Assembly (NCBI GenBank): GCA_019931185.1
Contig: JAINDK010000017.1
Location: 1-38,339 of the forward strand
Length of the DNA stretch: 38,339 nt
Origin: Bryobacter sp. CoA8 C33
GTDB lineage: Bacteria; Acidobacteriota; Terriglobia; Bryobacterales; Bryobacteraceae
Reading direction: 5' to 3'
Part shown: positions 31,427 to 37,529 of the stretch, piece by piece
Layout: each line of letters opens with the position of its first letter
How positions within the stretch are numbered: the stretch's first letter is position 1
Made by a program: the position numbers and the translations under genes
Notes under the pieces: generated by a model
Database searches by the model: none
What the model was told of the DNA's origin: nothing
Seen by the model: only the letters and a program-made list of their open reading frames with translations

Positions 31427-32206
31427 CTAGACCAGCGCGTACCGGCCTTCGTGGCAGACAACTTCGAGCCGGGTATTGAACAACTCGCTCAAGCGGCGGG
31501 AGGTCAACATGTCCTGCTTGGGGCCATCGGCGAGGATACGGCCTTCGTGGAGGAAGGCAACGCGCTCCATTTCCGGGAGGATGTCGCTCAGGTGGTGGGT
31601 GACGAGGACGATGGTGCGGCCCTGGCGGGCCTGGAGGCTGATGAGTTCATTCAAATGGCGTTGGGCGGCGAAGTCGAGGCTGGTGCCGGGTTCATCGAGC
31701 AGCAGGGCTTTGGGCTGGTGGACGAGGGCGCGGGCCAGGAGGATGCGGCGGGCTTCTCCGCTGGAGAGCTCGTCGGTCCAACGGTCGGCGAGATGGAGGA
31801 CGCCCATTTCGGCGAGGGCGGCGTCGGCGCGCTCCCGCATGGAGGGGGTGACCTCGTGGTAGGGCTCAATGACGATGCTATTGAAGAAGCCTCCAAGCAC
31901 CAATTCCCTGCCCCGGACGTCGCGGGTGGCGCGGGCCATCCAATCGTTGGAGACGATGCCGAGCCATTGGCGGAGTTCATCGAGATGCCAGCGGTCCTGC
32001 CCGTAGATGCGCACAAAGCTGTCAGGCCGCAAGAGCGGATACTCCTCGCGGGTGATCACCTTGAGCAAGGTGGACTTGCCACAGCCGTTAGGACCGAGGA
32101 TGGCGATGTGTTCGCCTTCCTCAATACGGAGAGAGAGGCCACGCAGGGCGGGCCTCTCTCCACGACAAACAGTAATGTTTTGGACTTCGAGTAAAGGCGC
32201 GGCCAC
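31427..32206 (-). CDS. ABC transporter ATP-binding protein
   Basis: The 259-aa ATPase has Walker A GPNGCGKST (residues 38-46), the signature LSSGEARRILLARAL, Walker B ALLLDEPGTSLD and the switch His in VTHHLSD. The sequence around RIYGQDRWHLDELRQWLGIVS resembles single-domain ModF/YlmA-type ATPases. No permease or binding protein is adjacent. It begins with GTG, whose first base is the last base of the peroxiredoxin stop (TAGTG), so it is coupled to that gene. Confidence 0.88.
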   Translation of the reverse strand: MAAPLLEVQNITVCRGERPALRGLSLRIEEGEHIAILGPNGCGKSTLLKVITREEYPLLRPDSFVRIYGQDRWHLDELRQWLGIVSNDWMARATRDVRGRELVLGGFFNSIVIEPYHEVTPSMRERADAALAEMGVLHLADRWTDELSSGEARRILLARALVHQPKALLLDEPGTSLDFAAQRHLNELISLQARQGRTIVLVTHHLSDILPEMERVAFLHEGRILADGPKQDMLTSRRLSELFNTRLEVVCHEGRYALV

Positions 32207-32754
32207 TAGAGCTTGCCCTTGCTCCTCGAGCAGGCGGTGACAGCACCGGTTACGTCGATAGCGGAACTGCCTTCCTCAATGTGAGTGATCTTACCGTCGA
32301 TGTCGACGACGAAGGTGGCACGGTTGGCGATGCCCCGGTCCTTCATGAGAATGCCATAGGCTTCGGCGGTTTTGCGCGTGGCGAAATCACTGCCGAAGGC
32401 AAAATCCGGCTTGATCACATTGTCTGCCCAATACTTGAGACTCGGGACGTTATCGGTGGAGAGGCCGATGACTTCAAAACCGAGATCTTTGAACTTTTGG
32501 ATACCAGCCTGGTATCCGGTCATTTCCTTCGTTCAACCACCGGTGAAGGCAGCAGGGAAGAAGGCGACAACGACGCCATTCTTGCCCTTGAAATCGGAGA
32601 GCTTGAAAGGTTTGCCTAGGGTGGTGGGCACGGAGAAATCCGGAGCGGCGTCGCCGACCTTCAAGTGCGTCTTGGGCGGCGCGGGCGCCTGCGCAAGCAA
32701 CCAGGAAGTGGAGGACACCGTCGCGGTGGTGAGGAGAAAGGATCGACGTTCCAT
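32206..32754 (-). CDS. Selenocysteine-containing peroxiredoxin (AhpC/TSA family), exported
   Basis: Read through one in-frame TGA (32533-32535), this is a 182-residue peroxiredoxin. It starts with a Tat-like signal ([22 protein letters not shown]), then [48 protein letters not shown], the catalytic Arg segment [11 protein letters not shown] and a C-terminal Cys in TACSRSKG. The TGA takes the place of the peroxidatic Cys at residue 74, completing the PxxxTxxC motif as P67...T71..U74. A hairpin suitable as a SECIS element lies 23 nt downstream. No other defect is present. It would reduce peroxides outside the cytoplasm. The alternative is a nonsense mutation. sel genes are not in the window. 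Confidence 0.8.
32499..32517 (-). promoter_or_regulatory. Putative bacterial SECIS element
   Basis: On the mRNA strand GGATACCA (32517-32510), loop GGC and TGGTATCC (32506-32499) form a perfect 8-bp hairpin. The loop starts 23 nt after the UGA and its first two bases are G. This agrees with the bacterial SECIS pattern as I know it: a loop about 16-37 nt from the UGA with G among its first two bases, bound by SelB. Confidence 0.7.
32533..32535 (-). other. In-frame UGA, proposed selenocysteine codon
   Basis: TGA on the minus strand replaces the codon of the peroxidatic Cys. The frame remains open on both sides, with conserved peroxiredoxin sequence before (FFPAAFTGG) and after ([10 protein letters not shown]). 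Confidence 0.75.
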
Positions 32755-32767
32755 AATGGAGATTATG
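32752..32767. promoter_or_regulatory. Near-symmetric divergent start region
   Basis: CATAAT-GGAG-ATTATG is a 6-bp inverted repeat. It contains the ATG of the peroxiredoxin (minus) and of the YfiT gene (plus). On each strand CATAAT lies exactly 7 nt before the other gene's ATG and resembles a -10 element, so one dyad may serve two leaderless promoters. Confidence 0.4.
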
Positions 32768-33277: not shown

Positions 33278-34633
33278 TTAAGCAGCGGGAGTGCTGGGAA
33301 AGGCGGGAAGCAGGGTCTGCAGTTCGCGCACGCGCGCGTGCTCGTCGGCGGCGCGGTTGCGAGTTTCGCCAGGATCTGCGGCGAGGTTACTGAGCCAGAG
33401 TTTTTCGCCGGGTTGGCCATGCGGATCATCGGGGAAGCGGGGGGGATTCTCGATCAGTTTCCAATCGCCGCGCCGGACGGCCCGGCTGTTGAGATAGAGC
33501 CAATGGATGTGATCGTGGGCAGACTTGCCGCGATCGAGCAGCATGGCGGATTGGTTCTTGCCATCGGTGCGGGGGGATTGGCCGGCACCGGCGAAGGACA
33601 GGAATGTGGGAGCGATATCCATCGCCATGCCGACCCCGTCGAGAACCTGGCCGGCGGCAATGCGCCGGGGCCAACTCATGAAGGCGGGCACACGGATGCC
33701 GCCTTCAAACAGGCCTTGCTTCCAGCCGCGGAAAGGGGCATTGCTGCCGCCGCGATAGGGTCTTCCGGCATGGTCGGCGCGAGTCTCCTGAGTTGCACCG
33801 TTGTCGCTTTGAAAATACACGACTGTGTTGTTGAGCAGGCCGCGTTTTTTGAGCGTGGCCATCAGGGAGCCGACGGCATCGTCCAAGGCGGAGACCATGG
33901 CGAGATGGAGGCGGCGGTCGCGGTCCATGGAGGCGGGGTAGCGGTCGAGGTATCGCTGGGGGGCGGTCATGGGATAGTGGGGCGCGCCGAACCACAAATT
34001 GAGATAAAAGGGCTGCGCGGGGGACTGGCGGCCGGCAAAGGCGGTGGCCTCGCGCGCTAAGGCTTCGGTCTGGTAGACGTTGTCGAGCCAGACCTCCTGC
34101 TGATTGCGCCAAAGATCGTGAAGGATTTCGCTTTGTCCGCGGCCCAGCGTGTAATAGCGATGGGAGTAGTAATCGGTCCAGCCGGAATAAAAGCCAAAGA
34201 ACTCATCAAAGCCGGCGGCTTGGGGGCGGGAGTGGGCGGCGCTGCCCATGTGCCACTTGCCAATGTGCGCGGTGCGGTAGCCGGCGGTCCGCAACTGGCT
34301 GGCGAGGGTGGTCTGGCCGGGCTTGAGCCCAGGGGTGTTGAACTGCGCCGTTGAGGTGAGCACATCGAGGATGCCATGATTTTCCGGATAGAGGCCGGTA
34401 AGGACACTGGCGCGGGAGGGGGAGCAGACGGGGGAATTGGAATACCAATTAGTAAAGCGGGCGCCGGAGGCGGCGAGGCGGTCCAGATGAGGAGTCTTCA
34501 CTTCGGGGTGGCCATAACAGCCGAGGTCGCCAATACCCTGGTCGTCGGTATAAATGATGATGAAGTTCGGGCGGCTGGCGGCTTGCGCGAGGGGCGCCAA
34601 AGCGGCGGCGCCGAGAAAGGAGCGGCGGTTCAT
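33278..34633 (-). CDS. Sulfatase, Tat-exported (S1 family, CSPSR)
   Basis: The 451-aa protein has a Tat signal (MNRRSFLGAAALAPLAQA). It contains IIYTDDQGIGDLGCYG (metal site), the formylglycine motif C70-S-P-S-R74 with ASVLTGLYPENHG, TAHIGKWHMG and YFQSDNGATQETR. The DDQGxGDLGCYG and SDNG elements are those of aryl- and glycan sulfatases close to the S1_20/S1_16 type. It starts at ATG 34631-34633; a longer frame runs through the terminator of nrdJ. TATCAT 7 nt before the ATG suggests a leaderless promoter. It stands apart from the other two sulfatases and converges on the YfiT gene. Confidence 0.9.
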   Translation of the reverse strand: MNRRSFLGAAALAPLAQAASRPNFIIIYTDDQGIGDLGCYGHPEVKTPHLDRLAASGARFTNWYSNSPVCSPSRASVLTGLYPENHGILDVLTSTAQFNTPGLKPGQTTLASQLRTAGYRTAHIGKWHMGSAAHSRPQAAGFDEFFGFYSGWTDYYSHRYYTLGRGQSEILHDLWRNQQEVWLDNVYQTEALAREATAFAGRQSPAQPFYLNLWFGAPHYPMTAPQRYLDRYPASMDRDRRLHLAMVSALDDAVGSLMATLKKRGLLNNTVVYFQSDNGATQETRADHAGRPYRGGSNAPFRGWKQGLFEGGIRVPAFMSWPRRIAAGQVLDGVGMAMDIAPTFLSFAGAGQSPRTDGKNQSAMLLDRGKSAHDHIHWLYLNSRAVRRGDWKLIENPPRFPDDPHGQPGEKLWLSNLAADPGETRNRAADEHARVRELQTLLPAFPSTPAA

Positions 34634-34640
34634 CGTCCTG

Positions 34641-34646
34641 ATGATA
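34641..34646 (-). promoter_or_regulatory. Possible -10 element of the third sulfatase
   Basis: TATCAT on the minus strand (5 of 6 matches) ends 7 nt before the ATG at 34633, immediately after the nrdJ terminator hairpin. No Shine-Dalgarno sequence is present. Confidence 0.35.
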
Positions 34647-34650
34647 GCGA

Positions 34651-34677
34651 AAGGCCCGGCTTGAGCGGCCGGGCCTT
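34651..34677 (-). terminator. Hairpin terminator downstream of nrdJ
   Basis: AAGGCCCGGC (minus strand 34677-34668) pairs perfectly over 10 bp with GCCGGGCCTT (34660-34651) around a 7-nt loop. It begins 23 nt after the nrdJ stop and is followed by only one extra T before CGC, so the U tract is short. Confidence 0.65.
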
Positions 34678-34700
34678 CGAGACGGGTCTGGGAAGCGCGC

Positions 34701-37529
<2,829 letters not shown>

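Follow-up and report, generated by a model that had tools for sequence, protein, structure and literature searches.

A selenocysteine peroxiredoxin with its own SECIS-type hairpin, predicted in Bryobacter sp. CoA8 C33 and its relatives

On the strength of comparative sequence analysis, we confirm the active-site, in-frame TGA in an AhpC/TSA peroxiredoxin (Prx) gene of Bryobacter sp. CoA8 C33, a codon that appears to be read as selenocysteine (Sec). The gene lies in what we call the window, that is, the whole stretch of 38,339 nucleotides that was analysed. The comparison of genomes shows the UGA at the active site, a Sec machinery, a covarying hairpin, selection on the frame after the UGA, and a congener with Cys in place of Sec, in which the hairpin is lost and no machinery was detected. 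The core claim of the original prediction, a selenocysteine peroxiredoxin with its own SECIS-type hairpin, is thereby supported by the machinery, by homologues with UGA or Cys and by an undecayed frame. Many related bacteria keep both the UGA codon and the hairpin needed to read it. We consider it highly probable that the product is a putatively exported, envelope-side peroxiredoxin of AhpE/BCP-like type, with a peroxidatic Sec inserted via SelB and the hairpin and with Cys175 as the proposed resolving residue.

Gene, active site and start region

Read with the standard code, the Sec-Prx gene is split in two. The mechanical ORF list shows two short ORFs, the outcome that had been expected from automatic annotation. 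The original prediction joined the frames 32533-32754 and 32206-32523 into one peroxiredoxin, and both frames are in the same register on the reverse strand, linked by the TGA (Table 1). With the TGA counted as an amino acid, the codons of the 182-residue product span 32754-32209 (-) and the motif reads P67-A-A-F-T71-G-G-U74, which places U at the peroxidatic residue of PxxxTxxC, as had been claimed.

Table 1. Features of the Sec-peroxiredoxin locus, in window coordinates
Feature	Position	Strand	Basis or remark
Sec-peroxiredoxin gene	32206..32754	-	182 codons with UGA as Sec; stop TAG 32206-32208
UGA codon (U74), peroxidatic position of PxxxTxxU	32533..32535	-	Sequence, translation, alignment
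SECIS-type hairpin, perfect 8-bp stem, GGC loop at 32507-32509	32499..32517	-	Folding and comparison
Arg145 codon, taken as active-site Arg	32320..32322	-	Invariant in 36 rows of alignment A1
Cys175 codon, proposed resolving Cys, in predicted helix 169-181	32230..32232	-	Invariant in 36 A1 rows
N-terminal signal-like segment, 22 residues, RR motif	32689..32754	-	Translation, low pLDDT at 1-20, genus conservation
ABC ATPase gene, starting with a GTG that shares 1 nt with the prx stop	31427..32206	-	ORF list, neighbour comparison

The window protein scores 110.5 bits for AhpC-TSA and 93.1 bits for Redoxin in Pfam. AlphaFold2 (38 aligned sequences, C for U) predicts a Prx fold with high confidence (pLDDT 92.9, pTM 0.85): residue 74 lies close to the beginning of helix 72-83, a C-terminal helix spans 169-181, and pLDDT is low over residues 1-20. 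Position 74, either C or U, is invariant in the 36 A1 rows, as is Cys175, and the catalytic Arg that was said to be kept is likewise present throughout. By our own count, the Pro of PxxxTxx(C/U) is replaced in 8 of the 36 rows, which counts against our best explanation. With its Prx domain and fold, its PxxxTxxU motif and its active-site Arg, the window protein is classed as a peroxiredoxin and is presumably a peroxidase.

The listed starts of the Sec-Prx gene (-) and of a divergent DinB-family gene (+, ATG 32765) are 10 bp apart (32755-32764); the sequence of this start region is similar in five other congeners with the Sec form and different in the Cys-form congener G006. Should both listed starts be correct, either the promoters are located within coding sequence or the transcripts have almost no leader. 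Elsewhere in the window, a gene for a class II (B12-dependent) ribonucleotide reductase at 34701-37529 (-) adjoins a sulfatase-family gene at 33278-34753.

The clade, its C-terminal Cys and its known relatives

A quick tree of 143 rows contains a clade of 85 rows (SH-aLRT 94, not starred), made up of 75 Sec and 10 Cys rows, with the Cys rows falling by eye on about eight branches. The clade is mostly Acidobacteriota: all rows of named origin belong there except L134, which is titled a Deltaproteobacteria MAG, and the remaining rows are relatives in the window's class. Every one of the 85 distinct members carries a C-terminal Cys, located 98-107 residues downstream of position 74, and 82 of the 85 have no other core Cys. 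A Cys at +5, that is, five residues after the peroxidatic residue, where the resolving Cys of BCP/PrxQ is located, is found in 0 of 85. Among 58 distinct rows outside the clade, such a tail Cys occurs in 6 and a Cys at +5 in 14. Most clade members, judged by eye, begin with a hydrophobic signal-like stretch.

Because the C-terminal Cys is conserved, other Cys are scarce and a signal-like N-terminus is common, we propose an envelope peroxidase in which Sec is the peroxidatic and Cys the resolving residue. In this scheme SelB and Sec-tRNA-Sec would bind the hairpin 3' of the UGA and the ribosome would insert Sec at position 74. The selenolate of Sec74 would reduce H2O2 or organic peroxides, and the resulting selenenic acid would be resolved by Cys175 of the C-terminal helix to form a selenenylsulfide, which an envelope thiol relay may then re-reduce. 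The C-terminal Cys could instead be structural, in a 1-Sec peroxidase of AhpE type that is reduced directly by an outside thiol. We hold this to be possible though rather unlikely: the 1-Cys AhpE is indeed among the near solved folds (4x0x_A, TM 0.77/0.91), and the match to the AhpE profile runs only to position 156 of the profile's 177, short of the C-terminal Cys, but this one Cys is retained by every clade member, at a narrow spacing, in a protein that otherwise has almost no Cys. The clade suggests that selenium serves many Acidobacteriota soil bacteria in their defence against peroxides, and that this may take place beyond the cytoplasm.

The original prediction further described a Tat signal and a coupling to the ABC ATPase. 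Within the genus the RR motif is conserved, but a loose RRx pattern is present in just 25 of 85 distinct clade members, and the Tat label of the N-terminus is thus weak, export as such being predicted from the signal-like segment. Similarly, an ABC gene follows in 7 of the 7 genus loci examined, the six besides the window's being close copies (80-87%), but no close copy was seen in loci outside the genus. In six loci outside the genus, ABC matches have 25-32% identity and sit at other places; in the 40 loci fetched by place, the sequence extends just some hundred bases beyond the gene, and most of these loci are too short for this comparison. A broadly conserved partnership with the ABC ATPase was rejected, and the case for its coupling to the peroxiredoxin is weak.

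A profile search ranks archaeal Bcp and AhpE first, and the near solved folds include archaeal Bcp, plant and animal 2-Cys Prx, and mycobacterial AhpE. Among the archaeal Bcp structures (2ywn/4g2e, 3hjp, 3drn), 2ywn is the best profile match with 138.7 bits and 3drn the best fold match. AhpE of Mycobacterium tuberculosis (Rv2238c, 1-Cys), also among the best solved relatives with 136 bits, shares the stretches AFTG-x-C and ANR-x-TFVVD with the window protein, but has Cys rather than Sec, and the match stops short of Cys175; its solved chains start at the Prx domain, as constructs, and say nothing on export. PrxU of Eubacterium acidaminophilum (NF040737) has in common with the window protein a Sec at the peroxidatic position of PxxxTxxU. 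The window protein nevertheless scores 68 bits on NF040737, against a cut-off of 270, and unlike the PrxU family it has a signal-like N-terminus, the C-terminal Cys175 and a mostly Acidobacteriota clade. No NCBIfam model exceeded its curated cut-off for the window protein.

According to the portions consulted, peroxiredoxins with TxxU are an established selenoprotein family (PMC13188914, PMC1794560, PMC5029168, PMC9312934), with 91 members in 78 organisms (PMC5029168). In the main texts of these four papers, Acidobacteria are mentioned twice in one and nowhere in the rest, and genes of the clade may well be included unnamed in published Prx totals. The deep-Sep study, in the part consulted, analysed an Acidobacteriota genome with three known selenoproteins (PMC12013277). 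The portions of the literature searched contained no description of an exported or Acidobacteriota Sec-Prx, or of this clade with its C-terminal Cys. Sec-Prx is already known, and the new element is the apparently exported, C-terminal-Cys, mostly Acidobacteriota variant.

The hairpin downstream of the UGA

The claimed 8-bp hairpin with a G-starting loop 23 nt downstream of the TGA was found in place, with the sequence GGAUACCA-GGC-UGGUAUCC; its GGC loop starts 24 nt after the UGA, i.e., with 23 nt in between. For positions 32488-32538 (51 nt) the folding energy is -15.3 kcal/mol (z -3.06), a value reached by 0 of 200 shuffles. Since z is only -1.89 for the 51 nt that follow the window UGA, single-sequence folding is modest evidence, and it is the comparative evidence that makes the hairpin more than chance. 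An Rfam scan of the window gave no match over the gathering score.

For the comparison, 70 distinct UGA rows and 10 Cys rows, gapless from position 74, were used after identical nucleotide contexts had been removed; the clade members L120, L134, L154, L156, L163 and L164 are in neither count. For the five upper pairs of the stem, pairing is seen in 62, 69, 70, 70 and 68 of the 70 UGA rows, and in 7, 3, 7, 6 and 2 of the 10 Cys rows. Pairing of positions 21 x 29 yields a Fisher value of 9e-17, although p-values for the hairpin, and likewise those given below for the machinery, are inflated and not to be read literally because the rows are related. A silent Tyr third base tracks a Gly/Asp change (UAC...GGU versus UAU...GAU), with UAC/GGU counted 40 times, UAU/GAU 23, UUC/GGA 3, UAU/GGU 2, UAU/GAC 1 and AUC/GGA 1. 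Wherever the residue 3' of the loop is Ala, it is encoded by GCU (56 of 56), as against 13% of Ala codons elsewhere in the same genes. Mean fold z is -1.00 for UGA rows versus +0.23 for Cys rows (p 0.0012), and z falls below -2 in just 4 of the 70 UGA rows (51 nt after the UGA). Given that folding is weak for many rows, the argument for the hairpin rests on pairing, covariation and codon choice.

The covariation score of the 8-pair structure, computed on 65 distinct of 68 sequences, is 0.267 versus 0.136 when shuffled (0 of 500 as high), and it is 0.109 or less when the structure is slid by 1-3 columns. Counting against the full stem, its two lowest pairs fail to form in 35 and 32 of 65 rows; many of these rows have, by eye, a bulged lower stem. 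Overall, the comparison makes a hairpin arising by chance very unlikely and points to a 3' hairpin conserved as RNA, for which SelB binding is predicted.

The bacterial SECIS of E. coli fdhF type is a hairpin directly 3' of the UGA with a G-containing apical loop. The clade hairpin is like it in both respects and differs in having mostly a 3-nt GGC loop at +24, typically CAGGCUG. Of 26 UGA forms outside the clade, L127 is the only one with an apical loop at the same distance. One Cys form (L042; G034, 1489-2007) has a similar hairpin that still folds, in a genome with selA and selB, and looks like a recent Sec-to-Cys change because the SECIS-like hairpin is still present.

Selenocysteine machinery, Sec and Cys among relatives, and the reading of the UGA

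The window genome (138 contigs, 97.7% complete) was searched for selA, selB, selC and selD, a check that the original prediction had proposed, and four of four are present. One strong tRNA-Sec was found (73.4 bits, the sole one of ten listed matches over the cut-off); ARAGORN also calls a tRNA-SeC, with anticodon UCA and discriminator G73. The profile scores for selB (354 bits), selA (467 bits) and selD (351 bits) are all over the cut-off. The selD gene (L019, G000:C110:10145-11068) is itself a selenoprotein candidate, with an in-frame TGA in AKAAGUASKLAPG, whose AGUASK we take to be the catalytic site; the 51 nt after this TGA fold at -23.3 kcal/mol.

A second proposed check was to align homologues and see whether UGA or Cys occupies position 74. 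One or the other does in all 150 aligned loci, and never Trp; one homologue listing comprised the best 80 of at least 518. TGA stands in the position-74 column of 61 of 70 fetched loci, which is not an unbiased rate because 40 regions were hand-chosen, mostly flagged with TGA, and the per-genome counts are fairer. We searched 61 genomes, that is, the window genome and 60 relatives. Among the matches listed, the clade is present in 53 of them, of which 47 have one or more TGA forms and 6 the Cys form only (G006, G021, G023, G033, G034 and G053). Again among the matches listed, 8 of 61 have no clade member: G058, excluded by the tree since its fetched Prx lies outside the clade, and G002, G009, G017, G022, G027, G031 and G036, judged off the tree by their weak best matches.

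selA is over the cut-off in 44 of 47 Sec-form genomes versus 3 of 6 Cys-only genomes (one-sided Fisher p 0.015). Taking tRNA-Sec at 55 bits instead, the association is weaker (40/47 vs 3/6, p 0.07), which counts against our best explanation; the tRNA-Sec search of the relatives used stricter filters that lose weak matches. Also counting against that explanation are G005 and G024, drafts of >1000 contigs with the Sec form and selB over the cut-off in which selA was not found, G021, G033 and G034, Cys-only genomes with both selA and selB, and the congener G002, which has selA and tRNA-Sec yet no clade member. In the draft G013, of Sec form, selA and selB occur only in pieces. Neither gene is over the cut-off in the Cys-only genomes G006, G023 (just 62% complete) and G053. 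The congener G006 (98% complete, 4 contigs) has TGC at position 74, the hairpin gone and no selA, selB or tRNA-Sec over the cut-off, with the clade gene still between the DinB-family gene and the ABC ATPase. This natural Sec/Cys comparison within one genus and in the same gene order makes it testable in vivo what selenium buys over sulfur. For the Acidobacteriota at large, we give even chances to the idea that exported selenoperoxidases with a Sec74/Cys175 two-chalcogen site form an old class found throughout the lineage. This class would be a main customer of the Sec machinery and would have reverted to Cys in several lineages, at least once with loss of the machinery.

In comparisons with five congeners, dN/dS of the part before the TGA is 0.02-0.04; for the part after it, the four computable pairs give 0.02-0.03 (dS being saturated for L026). 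The frame after the TGA is thus under purifying selection like the frame before it, in agreement with the claim that the gene shows no decay. These values bear on the idea that the UGA is a selenium-sensing switch, at which low selenium would yield a truncated peptide of 73 residues and termination would be the regulated output. Competition between Stop and Sec is generic at UGA codons; as conservation is equally strong on both sides of the UGA, and nothing in the analysis points to a function for the short peptide, we regard a switch as quite improbable. Still less probable is that the UGA specifies cysteine, by way of a selC*-type tRNA-Cys, or tryptophan, under an altered genetic code. tRNA-Cys of selC* type with a UCA anticodon and U73 occur in some bacteria, and allo-tRNAs in Acidobacteria, according to the part consulted of PMC7609411. 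The tRNA of the window genome, however, bears G73, the genome also encodes selA and selD, TGA serves as a normal stop in other places (it ends 9 of 26 gene-like ORFs that we picked in the window), and the absence of Trp at position 74 speaks against tryptophan; both readings were rejected as very unlikely. Equally rejected, and the least probable of all, is a genuine peroxiredoxin whose frame is interrupted by a nonsense mutation or sequencing error, a reading that the two short ORFs would suit but that conflicts with the same-column TGA in the independent genomes of five other congeners and across families and orders, with the selection on the downstream frame and with the covarying hairpin. 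The preferred reading remains Sec at position 74.

UGA at the peroxidatic position was also seen in other Prx groups (L083-L092, L119-L170), from Planctomycetota, Verrucomicrobiota, Chloroflexota and Bacillota (such as Neobacillus, Fictibacillus and Litchfieldia), with hairpins mostly at other distances. Finally, in the relative G060 two tRNA-Sec-like genes score above the cut-off; they lie roughly 3.6 kb from each other, at G060:C2:1115713-1115807 and 1112064-1112158 (66.2 and 60.9 bits, in the order listed).
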